A stretch of DNA of 64,000 bases from Diacronema lutheri (taxonomy: Eukaryota > Haptophyta > Pavlovophyceae > Pavlovales > Pavlovaceae). The stretch spans positions 1,612,001 through 1,676,000 of the forward strand of contig JAGTXO010000002.1 of the NCBI GenBank assembly GCA_019448385.1. Reading direction: 5' to 3'. Below the pieces are notes generated by a model. The model was not told the origin of the DNA, did not search any database, and saw only the letters and a list, made by a program, of their open reading frames with translations. Made by a program: the position numbers and the translations under genes. Below are positions 34,825 to 62,508 of this stretch, in pieces (the stretch's first letter is position 1; the number at the start of each line of letters is the position of its first letter).

Positions 34825-34911
34825 ATGATCGAGCTCGCGTTCGTTGCTTCTAGCGTCGCACTGATCGGAGCCTTGCTCGGCTGGCTCGCACGTATCTATC
34901 CGGCGGCCTAA
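34825..34911 (+). CDS. 28-residue single-span membrane peptide (PLV copy B)
   Basis: Twin of 16120-16206, unchanged. Confidence 0.5.
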   Translation: MIELAFVASSVALIGALLGWLARIYPAA

Positions 34912-35147: not shown

Positions 35148-35216
35148 CGTGGCTGACCATGGTCTGCGCTTTCTTTCGTCGCCGAATGGACGCACCCCCC
35201 CCCCCCCCCCCTCCCC

Positions 35217-41649: not shown

Positions 41650-43707
41650 AGGGCCGGCCTGCGGCCTCAGTGCCCAGCGTTGGGCATGTCAGCGTCTGCG
41701 TCTGCGGGCCCGCCACTGCGATGGCGCTTTGAGCCTGGCGCACCAAAACGCAATCGGTCCGCCGATCGGGGGGGGGGGGGGGGGGGGGGGGGGGGGCGAG
41801 GCGTGCGGGCTTGGGGTGGGCTCCGGGTGCCGGCGCTGTGCCAGCGGCGGGCTTGGTTGACGCCGTCTCGCCGGGGCCCTTGCGCCTTGCGGCGCGAGCG
41901 TCGCGGAGGGGCGTCGGCTGCGCTGGCTCCGCGTCGGCGGTGGCGTGGGGCAGGCTCTTGTGGAGGGCGGAGCGCTCGCGCACGAGTCGGTTGCCAAGGC
42001 GGGCTGTCTGCGTGCCGTTGGGCTGCGCTTGGGCAGGTAGGACCTGCGGCCTCGGGGGCGGGCGCGTTTTCGTGTTGGGCCAGGCGGCAGCGCGCACCGG
42101 CCGTGTTCGCGGCCGGCAGGCGGACGTCCGCAGCGGGGCGGAGAATGCGGGCGAAGCGCCTGCATGAACGCGGTTCGCACCTGGCGGCCAGGCGATCACG
42201 AACCGTTGGGTCGCCCGGCTGTTTGGTGGAGCCGAGGGCAGCAAGGATAGCAAGCTTGGCCGCCTCATCGGTGACGAGCGGCACTGTTGCCCAGCTCTGT
42301 ACCTCGAAGCCCTGGATGTGCAGGCGTCGGGGAAGTTCCCGGCAGCGTCGCCTGCGTCCGTCGAGAGGCGGACCGAACTCGCGCCCGTGCCCCCGTTGGC
42401 GACACCGAGCTCTCGCTCGTTCACACCGGCCCGCCGACGCGGGCGCGTGGTGCGCGCGCGTTGGGTGCGTGTCTGCCTCGAGCAGCGTGCCCAGTCGCAG
42501 TGTGGGCGCGTGTCCGTCTGCCTCAAAACGCCACGTGGAGGGGAAGGCGCGGGGCGGGCTCGCCGAGGAGGTGCCGCCGCTCGCTGCCACCCGGCGCGGG
42601 CTCGGGGCAGCCGTCTTCGGGTGCCGCGCTCTTCGCGCCATGCACGAACGTTCCGCCGCGCTCGCAGCGCGCGAGCGCACACACAGAGCGCGCGGCGACC
42701 CCGGCGGGGGCAGTGCGTCCCGGTGGCACTCGCGGGCGCGCGCCTGGTCTGGGCGCAGCTTGGCGCGTTGCCGCCCGCGCAGCGAGCCGCCCGCGCGCCT
42801 CGCCGCGCGCGCGCTTCGTCGCACGCGTGCGCCCTGCATGCACGCGCACAGCGCGCGGCGGCTCGGCGCAGTGCAAGGCAGAGCGTGCTGCAACGGTTGC
42901 GAGGGCGCGCACGCGCGGCGCGGCGCGCCCCTGTGTGGTCGCCTGCGCGCGGCGCGTGGTCCGGACGCAGCTCGGTGGCGTGATGCCGTTCGTGCAACAC
43001 AGTGCGCGTGAGAGCCGCACGTGCACATCTGCAGTGCAACGCGGCATTGCGCGCGTTGCGTGCGCGGAGCGCGGCTGGATGTGCCTGAGGTCGCGCAGCA
43101 TGCCGCGCGCCGCGCGCTGTGCGGCGCAGCGAGTCGGCCATGCCCCTGGTCCTCGTCTCCGGGGGGGGGGGGGGGGGGGGGGGTTTGGTGGTGGTGGCAA
43201 CCAGGATCCGCCAGCGCGTGGTGGGCGCCGTCCAACTCCCAACCAGGATGCGCCCCGTTCTTCCCCGACACTCTCCGTCCAAACCCGCCGCCCAGCCTGC
43301 CGCCGCACCCGCCGCCAACGCCGCCGCGCACCCATCCGCCGAGCTCACCGCGCGCGCGCTCGCGCTCACGCTGCGCGACGAGGCTGCGCAGGCCGGCGCG
43401 CGGCCGTGCAGAGCAGCGCAGGCCGGCGCGCGGCCGCGCGCGCGCGCTCACGTTGCGGCCGCGCAGCGAGCTTTCGCCGCGTCGCAGCCCCTCCGAGCAG
43501 CCACGATGCACGCCCCCGGAGGACGTTGGCCGCGCTCGGAGGCCGCGCTCGGGCGCGCAAAGAGAGGCGGCGCGGGCAAACGAGTAGGCTCGGCGCGCTG
43601 GCGGGTCCTGGTTGTGGGAGAGCGGGGCATTCTCCAGGGCATCATGTAAATTCTCCCAAGTATCATCCGGGCCGCCATCCGGACACTGACGTGCCCACAG
43701 TCTGCAG
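41650..43707. other. Low-complexity right flank, no recognised gene
   Basis: G runs at 41769-41797 and 43160-43183 and long stretches of alternating GC. Long open frames on both strands are Ala/Arg/Pro filler. One minus-strand piece near 42330-42181 reads like folded protein (LHIQGFEVQSWATVPLV, AAKLAILAALGST) but is isolated and matches nothing I know. The last 100 bases (AT-richer, TGTAAATTCTCCCAAGTATC near 43645) may be the promoter or 5' leader of the giant gene. TCTGCAG directly before the ATG could also be a splice acceptor from an earlier exon. Confidence 0.45.
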
Positions 43708-46700
43708 ATGGAGGACTCCGTGAAGGACGCTTTGCCCGGCGGGCGGGGCGGCTCGGACAGTTTCTCGCTGGCCCTCAGCACCATTCTGTCGCCGGGAGAT
43801 ACCCACCCCCACGTGGTCCCATCCACTTGCCTCATCGCCCTGCTGCGTTACGCGGATTTCGGCACGAGCAGGGTTAGGGTGGGCGACACGGGGTGCTCGC
43901 AGCATGCGCTCAAGGTGGCGCTGCGCAACCTGGGCAAAGCATGCGCGGCTGCGGACCGGTTTGGGCAGGTGCTCGTGGTCGTGCTACCGTTCTGCCTCCG
44001 CGCGTCCAGCGGCCTCGCGCACTGGACGGCGGCGTACCTGCTCCTCGCGCCGCCCGCGCAGCGCGGCGCGCCGCCCGGCGCCGCGCTCGCCCTGCTCGCC
44101 GATTCGCGCACCTTGGGCAACGGCGAATCGGCGTACGCCACGGCGGCCGGCGTGCTCATCAAGAAGCTTGCGCAGCGCATCGGCAGAACAGCGCCGCCCA
44201 TCGATGCCTTCAAGGCGCCCCCGCAGAGTGGGGCCGCGTGTTGCTTCGCCGCGGCAACAGTCGCGGCCGAGGTCGCGGCGAGCGCATCGACGCTCTACGG
44301 CCGCCGCGCGAATGTCCTTGTCGAGATCAAGAAGGCTTTGGACGCGCGCCTCGCGCGCCTCACGACGGCCGCGTACGAGGAGACCCGCGCGCGCACGCTC
44401 CGCGCCGCCATCGGCGCTCTGCTCGGCGACCGCGCCAGGCGCTTCGGCCCGTTCACCCGCGAGGCCGCGCGGCTCGCCGAGGCCGCGCGGCTCGCCGAGG
44501 CGTGCGATGCCAGTGTCGGCGGATCCGCGCCCGACGGGCTGCTGCAGGCCGTCGAGGCGGCGCTGCGCGCGCCCGACGACCGCATCGCACGCACGGCCGC
44601 GCTCGACGCGCTCACGGGCGCTGCAGGCCGCGCGCTGTCGACGGCGGCCAGGCCGCGCGGCGCGGCGGCGCCAAGGCCGCCGTCGCGAGCGCCACCGCCG
44701 CGTGCGCCGCAGCGGCGCGCCGCCTCGGCGTGGGGGCCCCGACCATTCAGCCTCCTCGGCGGGGGCGAGGGCGACGGGGACGATGGCGACGCCACCACCG
44801 CTGACGACGGGGAGGGCGCGGAGGACGGGGACGACGACCTCGCGGGCGCGGCGGCTGCGGCGGTGGCGACGGGCACGGCGGCGACGAGCGCGGTGGCGGC
44901 GGGCGCGGCGCCAACCTCGCCGGCGGCGGCGGACGGCGGTGGCTCGGCGCCGCTCGAACGCCGCTGCGTCTACACTGCGCCTGATGAGGGCGACGCGGAC
45001 GCGCGCGTGTACGACGCCAAGGACCCCGAGCAGCTAAAAGCGGGTAGGGCGCGGCTGCGGGCGAACAGCAGGCGCGCGCCCGCCGTGGTCGACACGCTTT
45101 TCGCGCACGCGACGGGCACGATCGTCACGCGGCAGCGCACGGAGGGCGTGACCGGCGCGGGCATGCACCACCTCGCCGCCCCGACGCAGGGCGCGGGGTA
45201 CGGTACCGTCGTGCGGGCCGAGCTGGGCGAGCCCGGCTTCGCGGGGACGACACGGCACATGACGTCGGGCGTGGAGAACCAGCCGCGCGCGGTACGAGCG
45301 GCCGCGCGCGCGTACGCGCACGACGGCTGGGGCGGCGTGTACAATGCGCACGAGGACTTTGCCGCCTTCGAGGGCTTGCCGCGGCTCGCCGCGCCCGAAT
45401 CGCTCGCGGCCATCGCCGGCGGGTCGGCGGACGCGGTGTTCTGCTGGCGGTCCGGCCGGTCCGTCAACGGCGAGGTGACGACGGTTCACTTCAATGGCGA
45501 CCGCGCCGCCGCCATCGACCACGCGCGGGCGCTGCGCGTCAGGCCCGATTGGCGCTCGCAGCCCAGGATCTACGAGGCGGCGTGCGGCGCGGAGGGCACG
45601 GTGCTGCTCGTGTGGGTCGTGCCCGACCGTCACAAGAACCCGCGGCTGGACTGGGCGCCGATTCTCGTCGTGATCCACCTGCCCGCCGACCCCGACTGGC
45701 TCGCGCGCGCCACGCCGGCGATCGCGAAGGCGCGGCGCGAGGTCGAGGACGGACGCGCGCGCGCGGAGGCGCGCGGCGTGCCGCAGCACCTCGCCTACAC
45801 GCTGAGCCCACGCTTCCGAGGCACCGCGCCGCGCGGCGCCGCGCGCGTGCCGCCGCGCCTCGGCGCGAGCGACGCGCGCGAGGCGCGCGCGCTCGCGGCG
45901 CTCGAGTCGGCGCTCATGTTCGCGCCGGCCTGGCGGCGCGCGGTGCGCGCGGCGAGCCGCGCCCCCGGCAGTGGCGCCGCGGCCGTCGAGCGCGCGCTCG
46001 CGCGCCTGCACAACGCGCCCGAGCCCGATGACGAGAGCGCGCCCGAGTCGGCGCGCGTCGCGCCGCTCGCCGCCGCGCTCGAGCAGTCGGCGGGCTGGCC
46101 GGCGGGCACGGCGCGCATGGCGGCAAGCGTGACCAAGGGCCCCGGCGTCGGAGATGGCGCAGGTGGCGACGAAGCGATCAAGGTGGAGGAAACGGCGAAG
46201 ACGAGCGGCGACGGCTGCACCGGCACGCCTCCTCTGCGCCCGGCCGCGCGCGCGGCCGGCGCGGCGGACGACGGAGGGGCGGCGGTCGTGGCGGGCGTCG
46301 AGGGCGAGCGCGACGCACTCGCCAAGACGGGTGCCGGCGGCTGCGACGACGACGCTCGCGAGCCGCTGTCGGCCGGCAAGCCCGGCGCACTCGCCGCCGC
46401 GGCGACCGTCGGGGGTTTCGGCGAGCTCGTCGGCAGCCTATGCGCGTGGCTGGCGCACGGCGCGGCTGGCGGCGCCATCGCGGCCATCTCCCCCGGGACG
46501 GCCGCGCGCGGAGCAAACGGCACGCCGCAGCGCGCCGAGCCGCCGGCCGCCGGCGATCCCGTCGCTCCGCACGCGCGCGTCGCCGCTGCGGCGCCCTTGG
46601 CGGGCAGCGCGGCGGCGCCGTCGTCGGACGCGCGCGACGCGCAGCGCGGCGTCGCGGGATTCGACGCGGCCGCGCACGCGCACGCGCGCGACGGCAGGCG

Positions 46701-49700
46701 GGCGGCACGGCGGATGCGCGAGCAAGAGGGGGCGGTGCACAGGGCCTTCCGCATGTCCCTCTGGCGCGACGCGACGTTTGCCGAGTTCGTTGAGAAGCTG
46801 CGCCCCGACGGCGGCGCGCAGCTGCTCGCGCGCGAGCCCACGCGGCGCGCGGCGGCGGTGCTGTGCGAGCTCGCGCGCGGCCGCGACGGCGCGAGCGGCG
46901 CGGCCGGGCTGCTGCACGAGATGAGAGCCGCCGATGCGCGCGCGCGCGAGGCCGCCAAAGCGGCGGCGGAGGCAGCGCGGCCTGCGCACGGGACGCTGCG
47001 CATCGTGGCAACCGTGGCGCTGGGCGGTGCGGTCTTCGCCGGCGTGTCAGCGCTGGTCGTTGCTTGCGCGGCGCGCACGGCGACCGGTGCGCTCTTTGGG
47101 GCCCGCCGCCCGCGGGCGGCCGCGCGCGGAGCCGACGACGCGCTCGGCGCGCCGCAGCGCGCCGAGCCGCCGCCCGCCGACAAGGGCAAGCGCAGGCGCG
47201 CCAGAGCCAACGACGACCCCGTCGACGCGGCGCGCAAGGCCGTGGGCAAGGCGGAGGGCAACTGCCGCAAGGCAGCCCGCCGGCTGCACCTCGCTGCACT
47301 GGGCGAGGAGGAGGCGCAGCAGCGCGTGCTCGACGCCGAGGCGGCGGAGCAGCTGGCGCGCTCGCGCGAGCCGGCCGGCGGCTGGGTAGGCAGCGCGCGC
47401 GCGCGCGCGCGCGCGCGCCCCGCCGCGCGCGCGCCCGTCGATTGGCGTGCGCGCAGCGCAGAACGGCGCGCCAGCTCCGTCACCCGCGCGCCGCCGCGCC
47501 CGTGCCCCTCGCGCGCAGGGGCGCCCTGCGGACCTGCGGCTGCAACAGGCGCACTTTGGCATGCGCGAAGATGCCGACGCGGATGTGCGCCGCGCGCACG
47601 AGGCGCTGCGCCGGGCGAGACAGGGTGTGGCGTGCGCCAAGGCCAGCGTGCGGCAGATGGAGGCGGCGTTGCTCAACGCGACGCGCTGCGCCACCGCGGT
47701 GCTCGCGCCGCGTGGCGTGCCGGAGGGTGACGAGCAGGCCGCGGCGAGAGAGCAGGCGGCGCTGGACCGGGAGGCGCCGCCGGCCGCGCAACGCGTGGCG
47801 CCGACGGCGCGCTCGCCCTCGGAGCCGCCGTCCGAGTGGGGCCCGCCAGCGGTCGGCCGGCGCCCGACGCCGCGTGCACTGTCGCACGCCGCGGGGCGCG
47901 GGGACGACAACCCGTTTGCGCCGCTCGCAACCGTCAGCGGCGATTGGTCGCCCACGCCGAGCTCGCGCTCGCCGTCCTCGCCGCCGCGGCAGCCGCCGTC
48001 CGACCGCCGCAGCGCGCAGCGTCGCAGCGCGCGCGCGCGGCCGCCGAGGCCGACCGTTTCGCCCGAGGACGCGCTCGCAGCCGAGCGCCAGGCGCGCGCG
48101 CTGTCGGAGCAGGCGGAGCAGAGGCGCGCCAAAAAGGCCGCCGCCAAGGCCGCGCGCCGCGCCGCGCGCGCCGCCGACAAGCGGACGGCGCGCGTCGTCC
48201 ACGCGTGCGTAAGCGCCGCCTTGCGGCGCGTCTGCACGAGCGTCGCCACGGGCACGCCGCTCGCCGTGCTCCGCGAGCGCGCCGAGGGGCCGCGCGCGCC
48301 GAAGCCCGCGCCCGCGCCGCCACGCCGCGCAGCGGACGGCGGCCGCGCGCTCCGCCACGCGCGTACGGCGGCCGCCGCGGCGGCGGAGCGCGAGGCGGCG
48401 GTGGCGGCCGACGCCGACGAGCGGTTCGAGCGGCAGCCCTCCGCCGCCCGGTTCGACGGCGGCGATGGCGGCGGAGGCGGCCACGTCGAGGCGAGCGCGC
48501 GACCGCGCGCCGGCGAGGCCGGCGAGGCTGGCGCGCACGGCGCGCCTGGCGCAGCGGGGACCCCGGCGGCGTCGCTCGCGTCGCGCAGCCCGTGTGATGC
48601 GCGCCGCACGGCACGCCTCCCGCACGCACGCGCCGCAGCCACCTGCGCACGCAACGGCGGCTGGGGTGGCAACGTCGGCGGCGACGTGTGCGGCGATTGT
48701 TTCGGCGGCGGCGGCGTCCGTCGCGACGCCTGCGGCGGCGGCGACGCCACCTGCGGCTGCGGCGATGGCGGCGTCGGTGCTGGCGCTGGCGAGGCCCCTG
48801 CACACGGTGCGCCGGCGCGCGCGACGGCGTCGCGCTTGCTGCGCTTGCTCGGCGCGCCACGCGCCGTGCTCGGTGCGATGGCGCACGCCGCGGTCGTGTT
48901 GGCGCGCGGCGTGGCCGCAGCCGTCGCTGGCGTGCGCGCCGCCGCGCGCGCCGTGCGGCGCGCGCGCCGCCGAGCGCCTCGCGCGCGCCGCACGGCTGCG
49001 CGGCGGGCTCGCGGCCCGCCGATGCGCGACGTCGACGGCGCCCTGCGGCCCTCGCCGTCCTGGTTGCGCACACGCCTCGTCTGCGGCCGGCGCCTCGCGC
49101 CTCTGCGCCGCGCGGGCGCGCGCCCGCCGCCCGCACACGCCGCGCCGAGTTCCCGCGCGCGCGCTGCGCAACCCGACAGCGACGCGCCGGCGTGCGCGCC
49201 GCGGCGCTCGGCGCCTGTCGGTGCGCCGCCGCGCGCGCGTGGCCTACGCGCGGCGCGCGCACGGCGCTTCCTCGACGTCGCCGGCCGCGCGGCGCGGAGC
49301 GCGCGCCTCGGCGCGCGCATCACGCGCCAGCGCACGCCGGGTTCGCCATCGGAGCCCTGCACGGCCGAGAGCGGCGACGGCGCGGGCGCCGGCGGCGTCG
49401 GCGCGGCGGCGCCTGGCGCGGCGACGATGCGCGCCACCGGCGCGCGCGCAGCGCGCGCTGCGGCGGCGGCGGTCGGTGGCGCCTCGCGTCTCGCGCGCCG
49501 CGCGATGGCAAGCGCCGCCGCCGCTGCCACCTCCATCGCCGGCGCTGCCGCCTCGACCGTCGCCGCCGCCGCCGTTGCCATCGGCGCGGCCGTCACGTCA
49601 CCGGCGTTCGCCGCGGCGCGCGGCATGGCGGCCGCATGCGTCGCTGCCTGCGCCCGCCCCACCGCCGCGCAGGCGGCCGCGTCGCGCGCGCTCGGCGCGC

Positions 49701-51915
49701 TCTTCGTGCTCGTCGACGCGGCCGACGCGGCGGGCGACAGCGACGCCGCGCTCGGCGCGCTCGCGGCCGCGGTCGACGCGACGGAGCTGCGCCCGCCGCC
49801 GGCCTTTTGGCGCGCGGGCCGCGCCGCGGCGTACGCACCGCGTCCGCCGCCCCTCGACTCGGCGCGGCCGCGCTACAACCGGCGCGCGCGCGCACCTAGC
49901 CCTCCCGTCGCGGCCGCGCGGCGCAATCTCGCGCGCGCGGTGCGCGAGCTCACGCGCGCCGCGCGCGCTGAGCGCGATCGCGCGCCGGCGCCGCGCGGCG
50001 CGCGCGGCGGCGTGCTCCACGCGCTGCGCGCGTCGCTCCCCGTGCACGCGCGTGCCGCGCTCGGCACGGACGCGGAGCTGCGCGCGGACATCGCCGCGTT
50101 CGCGCGCGCGCGCCGCGAGCTGCACAGCCTCACCGACGCCGAGGTGGCGGCGCTCGCGCGCCCGGACGGGCCGCCGCTGCCCGTGCGGCTCGCGTGCACG
50201 GCGGTCGCGCGCGCGCGCGGCGTGACCGTGCTGCTCGACATCGTGCCGCGCGGCGGCGGCGCGCCCGAGCGGCTCGTGTGCCGCGCCCGTCGCCGCGGCG
50301 CCGCCACGCGCACGCCACGGCCGACAGCCGCCGTTATCGCGCGCGCGCCTTGCATAGCGGCGCGCGTTGGCCACACTGAGCCGGCGCGCGCGTGCGCGGG
50401 CGGATCGATCGGGGTCGCGCGCCTCCGTTCAGCGCGCCGCCGCTCTTGGCGTGGGGCGCGGCTCGACGTGCACACCCGCGAGCGGCTGGCCACACCGGTG
50501 CCAGGCCACGTCGTGGCCTGCGCCGCCGCCTCGGCCATCGGCGCGTGCGTCGCTCGCGCGCGGCTTGGGCTTGCACGGCTGGCGCGCGCGTGGCCCTGCG
50601 CCTCCGCTCCACTGGCCACTGCTGCTGTCGCCTTCGCGCCTGCCGCCGACGGTGTTTTCTGCGCCCCGCTGGGCGCTCCTGCATCCGCCTTCGCGCCTGC
50701 CGCCGACGGTGTTTTCCCCGCCGTACTAGCCGCTGCTGCATCCGCCTTCGCGCCTGCCGCCGATTTTCCCGCCCCACTAGTTGCTCCTGCACTCGCCTCC
50801 GCGCCAGCCACCGACGGCATTTTCCCCGCCCCACTAGTCGCTGCCGCTGTCGCGTCCGCGCCTGCCGCCGCGGGCGTGTCTTCCGCCCCACCAGCCATCG
50901 CCGCCGCGCCCGCCGCCAACGTGCGCACCGCCAACGTGCCCGTTGCCAACGAGGCTACCGCCACCGAACCAGCCGCCCTTGAGCTTCCCCTCCAACCCGC
51001 CAACTCGGCGCTGCTTGCGTGGGCGGGCGACGCGGCTGCGCGCCGGCTGGCCTCCGCCGCCGCGAGCGCCGGCCTCCCGCAGGCAGAGGTGGAGCGCATC
51101 GCCAGCGGCGACATGCTCGCCTCAACCGTCGACGCGTGCTGCGAGGTCGTGCTGCGCGTGCACGGGCAGGCCGGCGGCGGGCATGTCTGCCACGTGCCGC
51201 TCGCCGCGCAACCCGCGGTGTTCCAGGACGGCGCCGAGCGCGCCGCGCTGCTGCACCGCCTGCGCAGCGAGGCGACAACGCAGGCTGTCATCGGCGTGTG
51301 GAGCCCGTCGGACGAGCGCGGCGGCGCGGGCGGTGACGACGGCGCGCAGCTCGCCTCCGGCCATTTCACCGCGTTGCGCCTTGTGCGCGTCGCGCGCGCG
51401 GGCGAGCATCGCTACGACGCGGTGCTCGTCGACACGCTCGCGTCGCCCTGCAGGCAGGCGCTCATGCTCGCCAAGGCGATAACTGCCACGCTGCACGCGG
51501 CGGGTCTCGACATTTCGCGCGTGCGCCGCGCGCTGCTGCTCAACGAGGCGGCGCAGCGTGGCGCGACGTGCGGCCTCGCGATAGTGGGCGCGCTCAACGA
51601 CGCGCTCGCCGCGGCGGGCTGCTCGTCCGCGCCGCGCACGTTCAGCGTGGCGGACATGTACGCTGTCGGCGAGCGCCTCCGCGTCGCGCTGACCGGCGCG
51701 GCCAGCGATCGTGCGCCGGGCGGCGTCTGCGCGGTCACGAGCGCGGTGCGTGGCGGGGGCAGCCCCGATCGCGCCGAAACGCCGCCGCAGACGCGCGGCG
51801 CCAAGGCCGCCGCTGGCGTCACCGCCGCCGCCACCGCCGCCGCCGCCGCTGCTGCCGCCGCCGTGGCCGCGCCGCCACCGCCGCCACCGCCGCCGCCGGC
51901 CGGCGACGAGGACGA

Positions 51916-51966
<51 letters not shown>

Positions 51967-54900
51967 GCGCACGTTCTTGAAGCTCGCGCCCAGGGCGCGC
52001 GCGGCCGCCTCGGCGCGTGAGGCGTTGCGCGCCGCGTGTGCGCGCGCGGACGCGGCGGCGTCGTCACACGCGTCGGCGCCGCACGCGCCCGCCGGTGCGC
52101 GCCGCCGGCGGCGCGCGGGCGCAGGCGAGCTGGCGCTCGCGGCTGCGCGCGCGCTCGCCTCGACGGAGCACGGCGATTTGACGGACGACGCGCTCGAGGC
52201 CGCCATCGAGCAGGAGCTGGGCGACGAGCGCGGCCAACTGCTGCTGTGCACGCGGGGCGCAGCGGCGCAAAGGCCCGCGCTTTGCCGGCTCCTGAAGCAC
52301 GCGTGCGCGTCGGCGCGCGCGGCAAAGCGCGCGCAATTCACGGTGTTCGTCGTGCGCGCGGCCACGCGCGGCGAGCGGGGGGGCGCCGCCGCGAGGCGCG
52401 TGGACTCGGTGGTCGAGCTGTCGTGCGCGCTGCACGAGAAGGCGGGCGCGCTCGGCGGCCTCCAGAGCGTCTGTGTGCGTGGCTTCGCCCTCGAGCGCCG
52501 CCGGACACTCGACGCTGGCGCCGAGGCCGGCGCGTCCGCCATCGGCCAGGACGAGCAGGTCGAGGCAGAGGCGGGCGAGGCGTGCGTCGCCGGCGTGACG
52601 ATGGCCAAGCAGCTGCGTCAGTTTGCCGAGCAAGCTGCCCGCGACGACGTGCTCTTCCACGTCGCCGTGTCCGAGGCCGACGCCCACGCCCGGCTGGCGC
52701 GCGTTGCGGGTGACGATGTCGGCGCGTACAGCGTCGTGCTCGCAGTCGCCGGGCTCGTCTGGCTGGCCAAGGCCGACGAGGTTGCGCCGGCGGCCGCCCA
52801 GCCCGCCGCCGCGCCGCCCGCCGCCTCGCCTGCTGCCGCCACGTCCGCCGACGCCGAGCGCGACGCCTCGCCTTCCGACCGCCTGCGCGCGCTGACGCTC
52901 GCCGTGCGAGTCGCGCTCGCGCGCGGCGTGCTGCGCCACCTCCTCGCCGACGCGTCGCCGGGCGCGTCCGCGACCGCTGGCGGTAGTTGCGCGACGCCCG
53001 TCGAGGCGGCCGCGTCCGCCGCCGCGCCGCCCGCCACGGGCGTCGTAACGAGTGGCGTTGCGGCGGGCGCTGTGGCGGCCGCACCGGCTGCTGCGGGCGG
53101 GGCGACGGCGGGTGCATCGCCCATTACGCGGCCGGCGAAGCGCGCGCGGCGCACGCTCACCGCCGCTCCAGCCACCTCGGCCGTTGCGGCCGCTGGAGGC
53201 GCACGCGCTGGCGCACGCGGCGCGGCCGGCGCGCCTCGCGCGCGCGCCGCGCGCGCGCCGGCCGAGTACGTCTGGCTTGCCATCGCGCGCCGGATGCTGG
53301 CGGCGCGACACGCGGCGGCCGCGGGCGGCGACTTTGTCGCGTCGTGCGTCGCCGCGATGCAGGCCGAGTACGGCGACGGCTGTGCCGTCGTCGTCGGCGA
53401 CGCGCCTGGTGACGCCTTGGTCGAGGCTGCGGCGGCGGCGCTGCTCGAGGGCAAGCACGCGGCGGTGAGCCTCGGCTGCGTCGACCGGCCGGCGGTGCTC
53501 GTCGTGCAGCGCGCCGTGGACGCGCCCACGTCGCGCGTGCACGGGTGGTGCGCGCACGCGGCGGGCGCCGCCGAGTTTGACGAGGGCGCCGCGCACGGCG
53601 TGTTCAACGCGATCGTCGAGCGCGCGTGGGCGCTGCGTCCGGACCCGGCCGACGGCAGCCCGCCGCCCACGCGCACGTGGGAGGTCGAGCGCATCGCTGA
53701 CGACGCGCCCGACCAGGCGGGCGTGGCCGCGCTGCGCGTGCTCTACGCGCTCGTCGCGGCGCACGGCCGCTACCGCTCGGCCGCCGCGCTCTCTGGCGCG
53801 CTCGCGCAGCTGCACGCGCCCGACGCCGCCGGCGCGCGCGCGGAGGTCGTCGCGGCGGCGTGCGCGGTGCCGCCCGGCGCGCGGCCGGGCGCCGCGCCGG
53901 CGGCCGCGCGGGACGACGCGAGGGAGCGCGCATGGGAGGGCGCTCGGATCGCCGCGCTCGCCGTCGGCGCGGACGCTGCGCGCAGGCGTGTCGCGCCCGT
54001 GCGCGCGCTCGTCGACGCGCTCGGCACGCCACCGACCTCGGCGATCACGGGCGGGCCGGCGGTGCGGCTCGCGGGCGCGGGCGACGGCGGCCACGGTGCA
54101 CGGTGGGTGGGCGGGCAGGCGGCGACGCCCGCCGAGCAGCTGCCGAGGGAGCTGCTGCGCGCCTACCACGAGGCGGTGCTGTGCGTCACGCCCGGCAGCC
54201 TCCAGCTCGACTCGGCGGCGCTCGACGCGGTCACGCGGCCGCGCGAAGACGACACGCTGGAAGGCCTCCTCGCGCGCGTCAGCTGGCAGTGCGGCGCGAG
54301 GGCGAGCACGTGCGCCATGCTCGCCACGTTTTCCGAGCAGGCGGGCACCGGCTCGCGCGTCGCGCTCAAGGCCCTCCGCACGAGCTCCGACCTGGCCGGG
54401 CTGACGGCGGCTGCGGTCGGGCAGCAGGCGCCGCAGACGCCGCCGCCGCCGCTGCTCGTGATGCTCGGCCGCTGCCCCAGCCCGCTCGTCGGCGGCGGCC
54501 TCTTCCCGCCCGACCGCGCGACGGGCGAGCCGGCGGTGCACGCGGCGACGTCCGAGCTCGCCGTCGAGCTGCTGCGCGACGCGCGCGCGCTGGCCGGCAC
54601 GGACGGGCGGCTCGTCGTGCTGTGCCTCGAGGCGTCCAACCCGCTCTGGTTATGCCCCAAGGTGCGCGAGCTCGAGCTGCCGCGGACGCGGTCGGACGGC
54701 GTGCGCGCGTCCGGCTGCACCTGCCCTGCGACGTGCAGCGATGCGCGCGGCGCGGCGGGTGGCGCTGCCCGCGGCGCATCGACGCGGCCGGCGGCGCGCG
54801 CGATCAACAAGGCGGTGCTCGACCACTTCGTCGCGCTTTTCGGCCGCGAGGGCTTCGCGACCTTTGAGTTTGCGGGCGGCGGCGAGGCGAGCTGGCTGTG

Positions 54901-57900
54901 CGACAGCGCGGCCGGCAAGACGACCGTCGCGGCGTGCGCGTCGCTCCCGCCGCGCATGGGCGATGGGCAGCTGGCCATCCGGCGGCACACGCTCGGCACG
55001 GGCGCCGACGCGCCGGCGCACGCCGTCGTCTCGCTCCGCGTCGCGCACGTGAGCCACGCCATCCGCCGCGCGGCGGACGACGGCGGCGCGCGCGCCGAGC
55101 GGATGGCGCGCGCCGCGCGCGCGTTTTGCGATGTGGCGGCCGCGCTGCGCGTCGACGCGATCCTGGCGGAGGTGCCCGAGGACCGCCCGACGGGCACGCC
55201 CTTCCTTGGCGGGCTGCTCGAGTTTTGGAACAAACGCCACGGGAGCTCGACGGCGCCAGCCACGCTCGCGCTCGGAGACGTGCGCGAGGTGGCCAAGCGG
55301 ACGGCCGACGCAGCGGCCGGCCGAGCGGACGAGGTCCCTGCGGCTGGCCGTCCGCAGGTCGCGGCGCGCGCGTGCGCTGGCGCGATTGGCGGCGGCGCGG
55401 GCGCGGCGGGCGCCTCGGACGCTGCGCCCCGTGCACTGGCGGGCGCGTCGGGTGCGCGCACGGACGGCGGCCCTGCCGACGCACCGCGCCAGCTGGAGAG
55501 CCGCTACGGCGAGGCGAGCAAGCTCGACCTACCCCAAGATTCCACTACGGGCTGCGTCCTCGACGCTCGCGAGGCCCAGGACCGCGCGCGCGTGCCTGCT
55601 GCGCCCGACGGCACAGCGCTGCGCCGCGTGCTCGACGCCGTCGGCGCGGGCGCGCCCGCGCAGCGCAGCCCGCGCTGGCACGACGAGCGATGGGAGGAGG
55701 TCACGGGCAGCAAGGTTGGCGACGTCGTGAACGACAACGCCGGCGTCGCGCACGAGACGCTCACCGACGAGTACGTGCACCGGCGGCGGCGCGAGGTGCG
55801 GACCAAGGCGACGACCGCGGGCATCCTCGGCGAGGCCGTCGCGCTGCGCAAGCTGGCGGCCGCGTACGGCATCACCGTCGTGTGCAACCTGCCGATGGTG
55901 CGTGCGGACCCGCACGACAAGAGCGCGCCGTTCGCCTTCTCGCCGGACGGGCTCGCCATCCTCCCCGAAGACAACGAGCAGGTCCTCGTCGAGGTGAAGA
56001 CGCTCACCAAGGCGGACGCCAAGGCGCACGAGGACGGGCCGCCGCAGCCGCACCGCGATCAGCTGCAGCTCGGCATGCACGTCCTCGGCGTGCGCAAAGC
56101 GCTCTACGTGCAGTACCTCAGGCACGAGGACCGGATCGTCGTGCACGTCGTGACGCGCGGCGTCGGCTGGCTTGCATTCGCGCAGCCGAGGGTGCAGGCC
56201 TTCTGGGCGCGCGTCGTCGAGCGGCGCGCGCGGCTCGAGCGCGCGCGCGCCGACCACCCGGCTGCGAGCCGGCGGCACCGGCGGCAGCGGACGCCGGCCG
56301 GGCCGCCGCTCGTGCTCGCGCTGGACGGGCGCATCCCCGCCGCGCGCGCCGCCGCGCTGCACGCCGTCGCGCACGGCACCGCGAGCGCGGCGGCGGTGGC
56401 GGCGACGGCGGCGACGGGCGACGCGACGGCGTTGCAAGACGCGATCGCGGCGCTGCGCGCGCCCGTCGGCAATGCGGCGATCGACAGCGCAGCGCGTGCG
56501 GAGCGCGCGGCCGTCGAGCGGGCGATCGCGTACCTCGGGCAGCCGGCAGGCGACGCCGCCGCCCGCGGCACGGCCGAGGCGGCCGAGGAGGAGAGGACGG
56601 TCGACGCCGACATCTGCGCGTTGCTGCACCAGCTCGGCGCGAGCGTGGCGCACGTGCACGTCGAGGACGCGGATTGCGTCACGCGTGAGCACTGGGGCGA
56701 GGCGGTGCTCGCTGCAGCGGGCGACCCGTCGAGCGCCCCCGCCATTTCGAGCGTCATCGTCGCGCACATCGTGCGGCTCGCCGGCTTTGGCGTCGAGCTC
56801 CCGCAGTCGATTCGCGTCGCCCCCAGCACGGCCGACTGGCACGAGGGCTGGCTCGACGTGCAGTGCGTGCTGCTGCGCACGCGCCGGCGCGGGCGGCGCG
56901 ACGACGACTTTGTGGCCGTCGTCAGGCGCGGTGGGCGCTGGTTTGCGTGCGAGCCCGGCCGCGCGCGGCGGCTGCAGTGGCGGTCGGTCCTGCGCCGCGC
57001 GCGCGGCGGCGTCGACGGGACCGGCGAGGAGGCGTTCGCGGTCGTCTACGTGCGGCGCGGCGACGCGGCCGGCGACGCGGCTGGCGACGCGCAGGCCGAA
57101 CGGGCGCGCGGCGGGCGCGCGCGCAGGCGCACGCGCGGCGGCACGCGCAAGCGCAAGCGCGGCGCCTCCGCCGGGCTCGAGGCGGCCGCGCCCGCCGGCG
57201 CGCCGGCTGCCGCGCCCGCCGGCGCGCCGGCGGGCGCTGCTCACCGCCCGCCCGCCATGCGCGCGACGGTCGCCGCGCGCACCACGCGCTCTGTGACCGA
57301 CGCGCGGCACTCGGCGCCTGCCGCCACGGTTGCACCTGTCTTCGACTGGCGCGCCGGCCGCCCGCCCCCCGCCGCTCGAGCCCGCCACCCGCGGCCGCGT
57401 GGGCGCGCGCCACCGGGCAAGGCCTGGGACAGCGTCTCGGGTGCGTGGGCGGACAAGCCGACTGGTGCTGCCGTCGCCGGCGCGCCGCCGCCGCTGCCGC
57501 TCGCCGCCGCGCCGCCGCCCACCGCCGCGCCGCCGCCCGCCGCCGCGCCGCCGCCCGCCGTCGCGCCGCCGCCCGCCGCCGCGCCGCCGCCGCCGCCGCC
57601 ACCGGCGGCGCTCAACCGCTGGCAGCACGTCGGCGCGGGCGGCAGCGCGGCGGGCCGGCGGCTCGCGGCCATCGCACGGCGGCAGCGCGGCGTGCGCGCG
57701 CCGCCGCCCACCGCGCGCTGCCTCGCTACGCTGCCGCCACCGCCACGCGACGGCCTCGCGCGCACGAGCAAGCAGGCGCGCGCGAGGCGCAACGCGGACG
57801 GACGGCCGGCGCACGCGCGCGCGGCCAACGCGCGCGCCTTCTACCGCGGCGTGGAGCTCGGCGTGCACGCGACGCGCGCCATCGTCGACGCGCGCCACGC

Positions 57901-60900
57901 CGACCTGCCGCAGGCCGTCTTCGTGGCGGAGGCGCGGGCGATCGTCGCGCGCTCCGCCGGCGGCGGCGCGCTGCTCGCGCCGGACGACGTGCGCGACCTG
58001 TGCGACGCGCAGACGGACGCCGATCGCGCTGCGATCTGGGCGTCGGTGGGCGCGCACGAGGCGACGCGCATCTTCGCGCTCGTCACGCGCAACGCGAGCT
58101 TGGCGGGCGCGGCGCTGCTCGTGCTGCACACGCCGGCGGGCGCGCCGGCGCGCGCGCTCGGGCTCGTGGCGACGCGCTCGCGCGCGCCGTCGACGGGCGC
58201 GCCGCGCGACGCGCACAGGGCGCTGGTGCAGCGGTTGGACGTGCTGATGGACGCGATCGCCGCGGCGCGAGGCGCGTCGCCGCTCGAGCTCGAGCTCGCG
58301 CTCGCGCCCGAGCCGCAGAGCGCGTGCAACGCGCGTGCGGCCGCGCTGCTCTGCCTGCAGGCCGTCGCGGACGCGAGCGGCCGTCCCGCCGCTGAGGACG
58401 CGCTGGCCGCGCTCGACGACGCGCGCGGCATCGACCGGCACTGCCACGCCGTCCGGCAGCAGATCGAGGCGAAGCTCGCGTGGCGGCGCGCCGACGGCGA
58501 CGTCGGCGTTGACGGCGCCGACGGCGCGCCCGCGCTCGCGCCTGCCGCCGCACCGCCGGCGTGCGCGCCGGCGCACGCTGCCGGCGAGGCGGCGGTCGAC
58601 CAGGCGATCGTCACGCGGGTGCGCGACGCGCTGCGCGCGTGGGCGACGACTGGCACCGCGCCCAGCGCGGCGGTGCTCGACGACGCCTGCGCCGCGTACA
58701 CGGCGCGCGCACGCGCGCGCAAGGACGCGCGCACGGCGCTGGGCCCGACGCGCGCGGCCGAGCTGCTCGCCGCGGCCGCGCGCGGCGGAGCCGACGGGGC
58801 GGATGCCGCGCGCGCGCTGCTCGGCGGCACGCCGCGCCTGCTCGTCGTGCTCCTCTGCGTGCCCGTCGCCGCGCCGTCCGGCGAGCCGCCGCGCCCGGTC
58901 GGGCTGCTCGTCGCCGACCGGCCGATGGACGACTCGCGCCCGGCCGCGCTCGTGCGCTACGACTTTGCGCCGCTCGACGCGGACGTGGCCGTCGCGGTCG
59001 GCGCGCATGCCGTCGCGCTGGCCAGTGCGATCTGGGCGCTGCTCGCGGCCGAGGGGGAGCCGCGGCCATCGCCCGTCGTGCGCTCGCAGCCGCGCGGCGG
59101 CGACGATGGCGCGCGTGCGCTCGCAACGTTCGCGTGCCTCGACGCGCTGATGACCGCCAGCGTCGGCGCGCACGGCCTCGCGGGCGGCGCGGGCATGCTG
59201 CCCGCGCTGGTCGCGCGAGGCGCCGCGGCCGCCCAGCGCGAGCGGCAGCTGCGCGCGGCCGCCGAGAGGCTGGGCGGCACGGTCGCTGGGTGGCCGGACA
59301 CGGGCGCGAGCGCGGCGGGCGCGAGCGTCGACGAGGAGGCGCGCACGTACGAGGTCGAGGCGGTCGTCGACGAGCGCCGCAAGGCGGGCAAGAGGGTGAC
59401 GTTCCAGTTCCGGATCAGGTGGCGGGGCTACGACGAGAGCGCCGACACGTGGGAGCCTGAGGCCAACGTGAGCAGCGACCTCGTCGCCCAGTTCCGCAAG
59501 ACGCGCGACGAGCAGAAGCGGCGCGCGGGCGGATCGGGCAGCGGCAGCGGCGGCGCGGGCGCGGCGTCGGCATTGGCGTCGGCGCCGCTTCGCGCGCACG
59601 GCGTGTCGGGCGCCGCGGGCGAGCGCGCCGCGGCGGGTGCCGCCGCGAGCGCGCGCGACGCCGCGGGCGCGCGCGCGCCGAGCGTTCCCCGCGCGCGCGG
59701 CGTCGAGCGCGCGCGCGTGGACGAGCCCGCTGCGCCGAGCGCGCGCGCCGCCGGCGGCGCGACGGCGCGCACGCGCGGCAGCGTGCTCCCGGGCTTCGTG
59801 GTCAAGCGCTCGACGCTCAACGCGGGGCCGCAGGCGGTGACGGCGCAGCCCGGTGCGCGGACGGAGCTGCGGCGCATCGCGGCGGCCGTGCACAGGCTCA
59901 CGACACAGGCGTACCGCGTCATCAACAAGGTGGTGCGCGACGAGGCTGCGGTGGCGAGCGCGCAGGCCGTCGGCGCGGCGTCGGGCGGCCCGTCGACCAG
60001 CGTGCACACGTCGACCACGATGGACAAGGGAACCGTCCGTGCGATCTTCTCGGCCATCGGCTGGCACAAAGACGAAAGCAGGTACGGTGCAACGCCCACG
60101 GGCAGGCCCACCGAGCAAGCCGCCGCGCAGACCAAGGCGGCGACGGCGCGCGCCGTCGGCGAGATGGCCGAGGGCGTCCAGCCCGTCTGCGCGGTGGGCC
60201 TCACGGAGATCCTCAGGGAGGAGGCGACGCAGGTGTCCACCGCGTGCCTGATGCACCCATCGCGCGTCGTGAACGGGCTGCTCCGCGACGTCGTCCGCGC
60301 GGCAGTCGAGCGCGACGAGGCGCTCGTCGCGCTGCCCGAGATGCAGCGAAACGTGCGCGTGCGCGAGCTGTGCGAGCGGCTGCTGCGCGGCGACGTGGAG
60401 GGCGCGCGCGTCGGCTGCCCCGCCGCGCTCGACCGCCACCTGCCCGACATGGTCCTCCACAAGATCGACTACAAGTGCACGCCCACGAAAAGGTGGAACT
60501 ACGACCGGCACACGACGCGCTACTTCCTCGTGCAGATCCGCAACCTGCAGCACGTGGCCGAGGGGCAGGCGCTGCTCTGCCGGCTCGCGCACATCCACAC
60601 GCAGCTGACCGGACGGCCGCCGCGGTACAATGTGGCGCCACTGCGCACGCACAATGTGCGCGCGAGGCGCGGCTGCCGCTGCCGCCGCCGAGCGCCCAAG
60701 CGCGCGCGCCGCCGCCGTGCGCGCCGCCCCGCGGCCAGGTTGGTCACGCGCCCGCGCGCTCGCATGCCGCGCGCTGCGCGCAGGTGCCGCGCAACGTGCG
60801 CCTCACCGCGAACGCCATCTGGGAGACGCTCCCGGACGACGAGCGCAAGGAGCTGCGCGTGCGGCTCAAGGCGCTGGACCTGCGCGACCACGATGGTGAG

Positions 60901-62288
60901 CCGATCAGGTGGACAGGCACAAACGGCAACACCCCGCCGATGTCGGACGTGCGCGTCAGGTACGCGGTCTTTGCGACGCGCTTCGACATCTCCAACCGCG
61001 TCTTCGACTACGCCGGGCGCGAGCGGCCGCCGGCCGATCTGCCGTGGCACGCGCGGCGCTCGTGGGTTGGCCTCGCGCCGCTGCCGCGCGTGCCGCTCCC
61101 GGGCCGGCAGCCCGTCACGTCGGTGGTGACGGACGGCGTCGCCGTGCACGCCGTCGGGACCGTCCTCGTGCCGAAAGCGCAGGCGCCGGCCGGCGGCTCG
61201 GGCGTCCTGCACCGCTGGCGCCGGCCGGACGGGCGCATCGCCGTCGCGCTCGGCTCCGAGCTGCGGCGGGCGATCGACGTCGAGGCGGCGGTCGTCGTCG
61301 CGGCCGACCCGAACATGGGCAACATCACCACCTACTCTGCGCACGTCGGGCGGGCGGCCGTCTGGCGGCAGTTCACGCAGCGCGCGCGCGCGCGCGCCGC
61401 GGGCTTTGCGCGCGAGACGGCCAAGACCAACGCGGCGCGGCGGCGCGTGCGCAAGGACGGGCGCGGCGAGGAGTTCAGCGTGGAGGCGGACGAGGCGCGG
61501 CTTGGCGAGGCGCACAGCGCCAAGGTGCTCGACGCGGGCAAATACATCGCCTTCCACCGCGAGAGCGCGCGGGTGCGCGAGCGCGCCGCCGAGCACGTGT
61601 ACGACGCGCCGGCGCGCCGCAAGGAGCGCTGGCGGCGCGACAGCGGCGGGCGGTCCAACGCGGCGTGCGTCGCCGAGGCGCTCATCGCGGCGCACTGCGT
61701 CGACGGCGTGACGCGCGACCGGCTGCTCGTGTGCGTGGGCAAGTGGCTGCGCGACCACAAGGGCGCGCAGCCCAAGGGCGCGCCGCCCGCCTTCCAGGTG
61801 GGGCTGCTGCGCGAGCTGCGGCGGCGCGGCGTCGCGGCCGTCTTCGTGCCCGAGCCGTACACGTCGATGCATTGCTCGATGCCGCGGCTCGCCAAGGGCG
61901 GCAGGCTGCAGCGCTGCGGCGCGGAGCTCGCGCAGAACCCGCGCCTGCCCGTGGCAAAGGGCGGCACGCGCACGGTGCACGCGCTCGTCATCTGCCCGGC
62001 GTGCAACGGCGGCAAGAAGCCCGTGCACCGCGACTACAACGCCGCGCGCAACATCTTCTACGACGTGCACGACATGGCGGCGCACGCGGCCGGGCGCGAC
62101 ACCACGTCGACGCCTGAGCGCTTTGCCCTCGTGCTCGCCTGGTGGGCGCGCGGCGAGGTGTGGGAGCGTGAGGAGCGCATGGTGCACGGCGAGGGCGACG
62201 ACTGCGACGACGAGTGCGACGGCGACGACGAGGGCGACGACGAGGGCGACGACGACGACGACGACGACGGCAGCGGCGACGGCGGCGG

Positions 62289-62321
<33 letters not shown>

Positions 62322-62508
62322 AGGCGGCGGCGGCGACGACGACGATGACGGCGGGGGAGGCGGCGGCGGCGACGGCGGTGGCGACGACGGCGGCGGGCGC
62401 GGCGGCGGTGGCGGCGGCGGCTCTCGCGCCCGCACCCCCGCCCGCGGAGCTGCCAGCGCCAGTGCCGGCGGCGGCAGCGCGCGCGGGCCGAAGCGCGGCC
62501 GGCGTTGA
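43708..62508 (+). CDS. Giant multidomain protein: Ulp1-like proteases, YqaJ nuclease, chromodomain, Fanzor
   Basis: Model: exons 43708-47385, 47519-60655 and 60784-62508, introns phase 0, about 6,179 residues. Order: Ulp1-like protease (about 60-195), unrecognised folded region (about 430-720), one membrane span (1098-1122), coiled coil, Ala/Arg-rich region with hydrophobic Ala stretches (about 1885-1945), second Ulp1-like protease (about 2420-2600), degenerate Ulp1-like module, YqaJ-type nuclease (about 3943-4127), USP-like C-lobe, Pro-rich linker, two more degenerate modules, chromodomain (5169-5224), Fanzor (about 5320-6070), Asp/Gly tail. Exon 2 is free of stops for 13.1 kb, far longer than other open frames here. 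Splitting into several genes, or extra short introns in low-complexity parts (for example 48550-48850 and 50300-50630), remains possible. These parts are typical of large DNA transposons; no transposase or terminal repeat was found, so element or host status is open. Confidence 0.6.
43885..44310 (+). other. Ulp1-like (C48) protease module 1, catalytic residues present
   Basis: The pattern of a SUMO or ubiquitin-like protease: VLVVVLPF then LAHW with His codon 44020-44022, LLADS with Asp codon 44101-44103, and PQSGAACCF with Gln codon 44224-44226 and Cys codon 44242-44244 six residues later, the usual Gln-to-Cys spacing of Ulp1/SENP enzymes. The usual Gly after the Cys is Phe here. The family cleaves after Gly-Gly of SUMO-like modifiers and is common in DNA transposons. 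Confidence 0.6.
47386..47518 (+). other. Intron 1 of the giant gene
   Basis: Donor GTAGGC after the Trp codon of AGGW; acceptor GCGCAG before GGG CGC CCT. It is 133 bases and phase 0. It holds a (GC)n run at about 47394-47415. Joining changes frame and links one coiled-coil segment (NCRKAARRLHLAALGEEEA) to another (VRRAHEALRRARQG), which supports it. Confidence 0.6.
50630..50895 (+). repeat. Tandem repeat of about 57-60 bases, five units
   Basis: In frame in exon 2 of the giant gene. Units read like AFAPAADGVFPAPLVAAAS with drift from unit to unit (for example FCAPLGAPAS, FPAVLAAAAS, GIFPAPLVAAAVAS). It gives a flexible Ala/Pro spacer just before the second protease module. Confidence 0.8.
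51110..51640 (+). other. Ulp1-like (C48) protease module 2, catalytic residues present
   Basis: ASGHFTALRLVRV with His codon 51362-51364, AVLVDTLAS with Asp codon 51431-51433, and AAQRGATCGLAIVGAL with Gln codon 51554-51556 and Cys codon 51569-51571 followed by Gly. This is the best protease match in the chain. A short Gln-to-Cys spacing (five) is the only irregularity. It is followed by a GCC-repeat poly-Ala run (51785-51965). Confidence 0.7.
51785..51965 (+). repeat. GCC-type triplet runs coding for poly-Ala and poly-Pro
   Basis: Two poly-Ala tracts separated by a poly-Pro tract within the giant gene. In another frame it reads as poly-Arg. It probably serves as a spacer and is prone to length change. 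Confidence 0.9.
53260..53780 (+). other. Degenerate Ulp1-like module 3
   Basis: It follows the strand order of module 2: AVLVVQRAV, a long helix FNAIVERAWAL, then DAPDQAGVAALRVLYALVAAHG, which sits where Q...CG...... of module 2 lies. The catalytic Cys position is Val/Ala. The similarity is by pattern only and is weak. Confidence 0.35.
55640..56220 (+). other. YqaJ-type (lambda exonuclease-like) nuclease domain
   Basis: A PD-(D/E)XK nuclease of the YqaJ viral recombinase group, which resects DNA ends for strand annealing. It opens with QRSPRWHDERWEEVTGS, the family's usual SPxWxxxRxxxxTGS start. A helix follows (AGILGEAVALRKLAAAYG). The catalytic core is FAFSPDGL (Asp near 55946) and LVEVKTL (Glu 55991-55993, Lys 55997-55999), and the closing helix is RDQLQLGMHVLG. 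All expected residues are present, so activity is plausible. In mobile elements such domains are thought to help recombination or end processing. Confidence 0.8.
56600..57075 (+). other. USP-like C-lobe without the catalytic His
   Basis: WLDVQCVLLRTR, DDDFVAVVRRGGRWFACEPG and EAFAVVYVRRGD follow the closing strands of a ubiquitin-specific protease. Asp stands where the catalytic His of GHY/GHL would be, and no Cys box is seen upstream in the usual place. It may be a binding-only domain. The intact-looking His box of the USP gene in the left flank (2735) shows the active form of the same pattern. Confidence 0.35.
57820..58400 (+). other. Degenerate Ulp1-like module 4
   Basis: IFALVTRNASLAGAALLVLH, LGLVATRS, then PEPQSACNARAAALLCLQAV, which mimics Q..xC......l.al of module 2 and keeps Gln and a Cys three residues later. 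The His and Asp positions are not convincing, so activity is doubtful. Confidence 0.35.
58610..59190 (+). other. Degenerate Ulp1-like module 5 (Cys replaced by Asp)
   Basis: RLLVVLLCVPV, VGLLVADRPMDD, and then RSQPRGGDDGARALATFACL, which is a close copy of the family's QPNGYDCGVF motif with Asp in place of the nucleophile Cys. That points to a pseudo-protease that may still bind a SUMO-like modifier. It lies directly upstream of the chromodomain. Confidence 0.45.
59345..59515 (+). other. Chromodomain
   Basis: Chromodomains read methylated lysine on histone H3. TYEVEAVVDERRKAG, FQFRIRWRGYDES and DTWEPEANV match the family from end to end, with a basic helix after it (LVAQFRKTRDEQ). The aromatic cage is complete: Tyr 59348-59350, Trp 59420-59422 and Tyr 59429-59431. 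The usual length (about 55 residues) is kept. Its place just before the Fanzor domain in the same frame suggests chromatin targeting of that nuclease. Confidence 0.88.
59790..62190 (+). other. Fanzor (TnpB-like RNA-guided nuclease) domain
   Basis: Fanzor proteins are eukaryotic relatives of TnpB/Cas12 that cut DNA guided by an RNA from the element end. Visible: YNVAPLRTHN joined across intron 2 to VPRNVRLTANAIWETL, the usual Fanzor segment before the wedge; VVVAADPNMGNITTY with RuvC-I Asp 61306-61308; VFVPEPYTSMHC with Glu 61852-61854, where Fanzors carry the Glu-TS-Cys motif; and CPAC then VHRDYNAARNI with RuvC-III Asp 62032-62034. The zinc ribbon is partly irregular: the first pair reads CSMP rather than CxxC, and another Cys follows in RCGAEL. 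The domain length of about 750 residues fits Fanzor1. A guide RNA cannot be read from the sequence but would be expected near the 3' end of the gene. Confidence 0.82.
60656..60783 (+). other. Intron 2 of the giant gene, inside Fanzor
   Basis: Donor GTGCGC after the Asn codon of LRTHN; acceptor GCGCAG before GTG CCG CGC. It is 128 bases and phase 0. Removing it restores a conserved Fanzor segment in a single frame, so this is the best supported splice in the window. Confidence 0.8.
62190..62505 (+). repeat. GAC/GGC triplet-rich tail coding for an Asp/Gly run
   Basis: About 80 residues of Asp and Gly after the Fanzor core, ending in a basic stretch (GPKRGRR). The acidic part could bind basic proteins such as histones and the end could act in nuclear import; both are inferred. 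The DNA is a hexamer-like GGCGAC repeat and may vary in length between alleles. Confidence 0.85.

Follow-up and report, generated by a model that had tools for sequence, protein, structure and literature searches.

A predicted giant gene joining a Fanzor nuclease to a RecE-type exonuclease and a chromodomain in an abundant mobile element of Diacronema lutheri

The 64,000-nucleotide stretch analyzed here, referred to as the window, was taken from the genome of the haptophyte Diacronema lutheri (assembly GCA_019448385.1, contig JAGTXO010000002.1; C69:1612001-1676000 in our contig numbering). Its right-hand part carries a putative giant gene that appears to be the core of a mobile element, called the Fanzor element after the RNA-guided nuclease predicted at the 3' end of the gene (Table 1). 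Three long stop-to-stop frames were found at 43690-47730 (1346 residues), 47390-61129 (4579 residues), and 59461-62508 (1015 residues). The original prediction, made from the sequence alone, had joined such matching segments by two phase-0 introns, and the corresponding GT-AG junctions are present; they link segments of 1226, 4379, and 574 codons to a reading frame of 6,179 codons.

Table 1. Features of the window and of the Fanzor element. Positions are those of the window.
Feature	Position	Strand	Remarks
5' module of Fanzor element	1..4210	+	end of helicase remnant and ubiquitin-protease-like remnant
UCH/USP (ubiquitin carboxyl-terminal hydrolase) His-box region	2684..2803	+	PF00443, 23.7 bits (cut-off 23.9), E 4.3e-5
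Foreign insertion	4211..41649		two 18.7-kb elements in head-to-tail order, 99.7% identical and bounded by 605-bp terminal inverted repeats (self-BLAST)
3' module of Fanzor element	41646..62915	+	runs to 3' terminus (...GGCTTGACCATCTATAC)
Exon 1	43708..47385	+	1226 codons; frame without stop against family B
C48/Ulp1-like His-Asp-Gln-Cys motif 1	44020..44247	+	regular-expression match
E-x-K-like motif, possible second PD-(D/E)XK nuclease	45469..45492	+	by eye; no profile support
Putative intron 1	47386..47518	+	GT-AG, 133 bp, holds (GC)n tract
Exon 2	47519..60655	+	4379 codons, 0 stops
C48/Ulp1-like His-Asp-Gln-Cys motif 2	51362..51571	+	regular-expression match; motif letters kept in short variant L104
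RecE/YqaJ-type (lambda-exonuclease-like) nuclease domain	55652..56227	+	PHROG_434, TIGR03033, Pfam YqaJ
Chromodomain	59348..59500	+	PF00385 E 9.9e-12; PDB CDYL chain E 1.1e-8
Putative Fanzor N-terminal half	59783..60655	+	in frame with rest of exon 2; without profile support of its own
Putative intron 2	60656..60783	+	GT-AG, 128 bp, within Fanzor coding sequence
Exon 3	60784..62508	+	C-terminal half of Fanzor with RuvC and zinc-ribbon region, acidic tail; relatives P0004-P0007
Cas12f1/TnpB-like TNB domain (zinc-ribbon, RDYNAARNI)	61816..62055	+	PF07282 E 2.8e-6, over cut-off
Candidate guide (omega) RNA region	62509..62915	+	stop codon to 3' terminus; inferred from TnpB/Fanzor biology

The 13.1-kb stop-free frame reported by the original prediction was confirmed. 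Exon 2 (13,137 bp) contains no in-frame stop, while 500 first-order simulations of this stretch gave a mean of 29.9 stops (range 11-49), with no open run beyond 1,618 codons, so that a chance open frame is ruled out for this exon; its other two forward frames contain 32 and 18 stops. The coding frame was likewise free of stops in all six comparisons with other copies of the element, every other forward frame being interrupted at least once, and the gap clusters in these comparisons add up to multiples of three.

With regard to the connection of the three segments, five other copies (C11, C48, C75, C21, and C33) are informative. In each, the matches to exon 1 and to the exonuclease segment of exon 2 lie in open frames of identical length (4,864-6,136 residues), so both parts are apparently read in one frame. 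Between fixed points, the stretch around intron 1 measures 222 bp in L107-L111 (four of the five equal-length copies and C75:530101; L106, on C11, was left out of this measurement) and 220 bp in the window, L113, and L114, and intron 1 is regarded as plausible, not proven. Intron 2 is supported, because family B, a related family represented on contig C1, reads through the site continuously in one frame (aligned by eye). In addition, a 425-residue EukProt record named Pavlova lutheri agrees with exon 2 at 423 of its 425 residues. Equal frame lengths, family B continuity, and the EukProt match favor the reading of exons 1-3 as one gene, which most likely encodes a single multi-domain protein of about 6,180 residues.

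By profile comparison, this protein contains predicted RecE-type exonuclease, chromodomain, and Fanzor domains, in agreement with the YqaJ, chromodomain, and Fanzor assignments of the original prediction. The exonuclease was matched by PHROG_434 (RecE-like, E 2.4e-15) and, below the respective cut-offs, by TIGR03033 (E 8.2e-6) and Pfam YqaJ (E 0.018); the same domain of copy L001 exceeded the Pfam YqaJ cut-off in the genome profile search, and the catalytic D..ExK arrangement is present (SPDG...EVK, by eye). For the Fanzor part, the PDB search returned only a weak Cas12f1 match (E 0.72), and ADPNMGN and VPEPYTS were picked by eye as candidates for the RuvC-I Asp and RuvC-II Glu, respectively. 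A stretch corresponding to the N-terminal half also precedes the Fanzor of family B (aligned by eye). Four Fanzor relatives were found in the protein collection, with identities of 98%, 48%, 40%, and 39% over 100%, 94%, 60%, and 44% of the query, and there was no Fanzor match among viral contigs. The protein collection held no relative of the giant frame (P0002, region 2300-2950) among 1,449 candidates scored.

The Ulp1-like proteases and the SUMO link of the original prediction are suggested at motif level only. Two His-Asp-Gln-Cys motifs were matched, against 0.0035-0.0115 expected per residue shuffle for a pattern that was written after inspecting the sequence, whereas Peptidase_C48 (PF02902) gave no Pfam match at E<=10 across nine slices. 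At the possible second nuclease motif in exon 1, the window and copies L033-L035 read GEVTTVHF and family B reads GEVKTVHF, i.e., four copies of the window's own family A carry Thr in place of the catalytic Lys.

The genome, 43,492,796 bases in 103 contigs, was searched with several parts of the gene; the match lists count the window's own copy, and the figures are lower bounds. The Fanzor exon was found in at least 97 places (the best 97 of 413 candidates), all stop-free over the matched stretch. The first 191 codons of exon 1 were found in at least 150 places (the best 150 of 187 candidates) with 93-100% identity, and 148 of the 150 listed matches had no stop. For the exonuclease segment, at least 150 places (the best 150 of 233 candidates) were 97-100% identical and none contained a stop. 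The 3' module was matched at no fewer than 39 other places, 38 of them in one piece from 41646 and one, on C44, in pieces (best 40 of 249 candidates), and positions 1-3000 of the window were matched over the full length at a minimum of 22 other places. In all 29 other copies followed by BLAST (L003-L031), the match to the window stops at 62914-62922; beyond this shared end, 27 have differing flanks and two meet a contig end (the end of C71 and the start of C12). We conclude from these comparisons that the element is, by all appearances, a young and very abundant giant DNA transposon of D. lutheri with well over 100 near-identical copies. The earlier suggestion that the gene is at the core of a large mobile element of eukaryotes is thereby strongly supported.

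The termini were narrowed down further. The 3' terminus lies at 62914-62915, whereas the 5' end falls outside the window, 3,607 bp further upstream (C69:1608393); in at least 18 places, a one-piece match starts at L038:6389-6400. At the 5' end the element reads CTATATA[CG] preceding GGCGCGG, with the leading C in 19 of 23 distinct flanks, and at the 3' end it reads CTATA, the next base being C in 37 of 39 distinct flanks (repeated flanks and the window's own 3' end, present in L002, L056, and L088, were left out of these counts). CTATA is therefore common to both termini. No 7-base inverted match was found between the end regions, and visual inspection of 18 copies with both flanks revealed no target duplication. 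Near the junction, the 3' flanks are rich in AT (53% at bases 2-6 and 35% at bases 40-60, compared to 26-28% far out in the 5' flanks). Four insertions hit the AT-rich end of another repeat at three points, and a fifth (L057) lies at a further point; because insertions in one repeat start at differing points, the leading CTATATA is probably part of the element itself. A search with joined flanks returned mostly the flanks themselves and a repeat whose end is often hit by insertions, and no clean empty site was read. The uninterrupted copy C86:554646-583740 measures approximately 29.1 kb, as do the long copies in general, within a size range of 21-29 kb. By our own arithmetic, 150 copies of this size would make up approximately 7-10% of the 43.5-Mb genome. 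The D. lutheri genome paper gives 22.9% repeats, and its main text contains no word beginning with 'transpos' (PMC8379373).

Two further observations concern the surroundings of the copies. Among the matches listed, 14 contigs (C1, C2, C5, C6, C10, C12, C26, C29, C79, C80, C83, C90, C91, and C92) carry a reversed copy whose exon-1 segment is 18.2-18.8 kb away from the start of the contig, and these contigs seemingly begin at the 3' terminus of the element, the exact base having been seen for the start of C12 and the end of C71. Breaks of the assembly at repeat edges would explain these positions more simply than telomere targeting or a location at chromosome ends. The flanks of L094 and L022 contain another repeat with CTATATACGGAGCG, which resembles the 5' end of the element and may represent a related family with its own transposase.

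Relatives within the same genome share different parts of the gene. A short variant on C27, about 21.6 kb long by its ends, has no match to window positions 3293-4210 and 41646-50990; it lacks exon 1 and has a different N-terminal stretch, and it aligns with 50991-60891, including protease motif 2, the profile-confirmed exonuclease, and the chromodomain. Family B (L060 and L061, C1:118301-138300) is 89-99% identical in the 5' module and 92-95% identical in exon 1 up to position 46116, where it contains 1.9 kb of additional sequence, and past this position no BLASTN match of more than 150 bp to the window was obtained. It ends in its own Fanzor, which has 48% identity to that of family A over 103 residues; besides C1, 23 places match all 226 residues of the family B Fanzor segment at 96-100%, others at lower identity. 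As family A, the C27 variant, and family B share different parts, the gene is modular, with segments swapped between families, and the Fanzor end is the part kept in all three. Identity also changes in steps along the copies, for instance from 86% to 99% within exon 2 of C27, and such sharp changes along the C27 and C1 copies are compatible with copying by recombination. Relatives with these domains as separate genes, which the original prediction had set against its own proposal, were not seen among those found, yet the N-terminus of the short variant differs and the coding pieces on C1 lie in more than one frame. Beyond these families, a diverged Fanzor at C74:351754-352086, with 53% identity to family B over 102 residues, lies inside an open frame of 4,321 residues and is possibly a third giant-Fanzor family.

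Comparisons of substitutions gave partial signs of constraint. A stretch of 255 codons of exon 2 compared to C27 yielded an omega (ratio of non-synonymous to synonymous substitution rates, dN/dS) of 0.47, against 1.11 and 1.41 in the other frames. The Fanzor exon differed from that of L008 by seven synonymous and three non-synonymous changes, equivalent to a dN/dS of 0.15 from 10 differences. Over a longer stretch of this exon, nine copies showed 0-12 synonymous and 1-12 non-synonymous changes, with 26% synonymous changes expected under uniformity.

The role of Fanzors for their transposons is still open. A cut-and-copy model for TnpB is discussed for Fanzor as well in a passage of PMC10432273, and the TnpB-type system treated there resembles the present element in that an RNA-guided nuclease adjoins the 3' end of a mobile element; here, however, TnpA was not found and the nuclease is fused to many domains. 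We propose that the transposon core gene encodes one giant protein that combines RNA-guided cutting, resection, and recombinational copying. A guide RNA from the 3' end of the element, extending into the neighboring host DNA, would direct the Fanzor part to matching element-free DNA; the fused lambda/RecE-type exonuclease would resect the cut, repair by recombination would copy the element in, and the chromodomain might hold the protein on silent chromatin. The fold z of the 3' end was -2.61 for the last 256 nt and -1.43 for 404 nt, and the candidate guide RNA region had no Rfam match. Taken as a whole, this explanation is held tentatively, with our doubts slightly outweighing our confidence. 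A broader version is rather improbable in our estimation. It would make the element a transposase-free giant class that spreads by homing, with a cutter, an exonuclease, and a heterochromatin reader in one polypeptide and with exon 1 diversifying rapidly in the manner of an arms race. Guided cutting and recombinational copying would in that case replace the classical transposase, and the arms-race part draws on a dN/dS of 2.2-2.7 from one pair of copies.

Several results weigh against one giant copying protein. The frames scanned yielded no transposase. The short variant is without exon 1, and this exon may therefore be dispensable for spread. In the family B copy on C1, neither exonuclease nor chromodomain was detected in the two frames scanned, so these domains seem not to be needed by every relative, and its coding pieces fall into more than one frame, either by introns or by damage. 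The substitution data are ambiguous as well. Exon 1 compared to family B gave dN/dS values of 2.67 (370 codons) and 2.22 (424 codons), which may partly be a composition effect, and wrong frames of the same stretches gave 0.75-0.81 and 0.96/0.37; since another frame has lower values, the substitutions in exon 1 do not confirm its frame. More similar stretches of exon 2 in C27 look neutral (omega 0.86 and 1.13), and the exon-2 part of L001 is near neutral relative to the window with eight synonymous and 23 non-synonymous changes. All omega values are rough because of a GC content at third codon positions of 0.91-0.95.

A different origin could be argued from the 5' module; that the element extends upstream past the window was overlooked by the original prediction. 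In copy C86 (L059), this module holds PIF1-like helicase pieces (E 2.7e-23 and 8e-19), and both these pieces and the UCH/USP match are each apparently split over more than one frame; a Cys-box-like stretch of the UCH/USP remnant lies in a different frame (by eye). The helicase shares 128 bp at 92% (49 residues at 73%) with contig C63, which carries the only Helitron_like_N match returned by the genome search. The element could thus be a non-autonomous giant Helitron that took up the giant gene and lost its Rep but not its helicase, which is decaying, and that depends on a Helitron Rep in trans for its movement, in which case the giant protein would be cargo or a helper and not the copying machine. 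The lack of a detected terminal inverted repeat and of a visible target duplication in the 18 copies would fit, and a passage of PMC3627910 places Fanzor1 within Helitron2 elements. Those elements are alike in being Fanzor-bearing mobile elements with an algal host, besides the Helitron link; in the present case, Fanzor forms the C-terminus of a protein with exonuclease and chromodomain that is about 6,180 residues long, in an element of 21-29 kb with ends unlike Helitron2. The ends CTATATA...CTATAC also differ from the 5'-TC/CTRR-3' of Helitrons, no 7-base inverted match in the manner of Helitron2 was found between the end regions, and the stretch shared with C63 is short. Profiles for Rep, DDE transposase, and tyrosine recombinase had no match in the frames scanned, which did not cover every short frame, and pattern searches for HUH or tyrosine-recombinase motifs gave stray matches only. 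We consider a Helitron unlikely, but of all alternatives it deserves the most attention. Under the proposed copying model, too, the decayed Helitron-type helicase and the lack of a recognizable Rep suggest that Helitrons acting in trans, or else an unrecognized domain of the giant protein, may provide for insertion.

A Crypton-like element, which would insert via a circle by a tyrosine recombinase too diverged to be seen, would explain CTATA as a short terminal direct repeat and would be in line with the absence of a visible inverted repeat or duplication. Terminal direct repeats of 4-6 bp are known from Cryptons, and the parts of PMC3212892 on CryptonS and CryptonF describe C48 peptidases in some of them, so that short identical termini, missing inverted repeats, and a Ulp1-like motif are common features; here, however, the protease is found at motif level only, the recombinase profile is without a match in the frames scanned, and insertions at one repeated target start at differing bases, the element itself providing the leading C. 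We give this explanation little credence. Similarly improbable is the view that exons 1, 2, and 3 belong to two or three genes, each starting independently, as could be argued from the N-terminus that replaces exon 1 in the short variant and from the predicted relatives P0005 and P0007, which start with Met exactly at the start of exon 3 (by eye). The common open frame of exon 1 and exonuclease in five copies and the continuity of family B over the exon 2-3 join argue for one gene, and exon 3 alone would be without an apparent Fanzor N-terminal half. Finally, the original prediction had also allowed for a domesticated product of a transposon. The long open frame kept between families would be expected of such a host gene, but the occurrence of the element in at least 150 places, 93-100% identical and with differing flanks beyond a fixed 3' end, speaks so strongly against it that it deserves next to no weight; domestication is unsupported because of the high copy number and recent spread, and a unique or domesticated gene is ruled out by the copy number.

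If the proposed giant copying protein is real, the domain fusion points to a mode of self-copying that would be new among selfish elements. The PD-(D/E)XK exonuclease domain is shared with lambda exonuclease/RecE (YqaJ) recombination modules, but in the Fanzor element it would be part of a eukaryotic transposon protein that also includes an RNA-guided nuclease; an annealing partner of the exonuclease was not noticed, although no specific search was made. No description of a combination of Fanzor, exonuclease, chromodomain, and Ulp1-like motifs was found in the open-licence literature, and a term search of PMC3627910 returned no Ulp1, no YqaJ, and one word beginning with 'chromo'. The giant gene would be a source of natural RNA-guided nuclease-exonuclease fusions. 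With a Fanzor-exonuclease-chromodomain fusion in well over 100 young copies and a culturable alga with a long-read genome, the cut-and-copy idea is directly testable. In our judgment, the protein would rank among the largest transposon proteins.

Further features accompany the element. At L038 8257-8576 (about -1743 to -1424 relative to the window), a 320-bp imperfect palindrome adjoins the helicase remnant in the 5' module; its copies match in reverse at 75%, and it is possibly a small nested transposon. The foreign insertion that separates the two modules in the window was another feature missing from the original prediction, along with the helicase and ubiquitin-protease remnants. Copies L033-L035 are without it, window position 4210 joining 41646 directly. 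Its two units of 18.7 kb occupy 4210-22911 and 22912-41649, and the products predicted for this element include a packaging ATPase of the Pox_A32-like kind (E 7e-10), a helicase-like protein matching AAA_30 (E 2e-9), and another protein in which three discoidin-type matches were found. By its gene content, it looks like a Polinton-like virus integrated within the Fanzor element.

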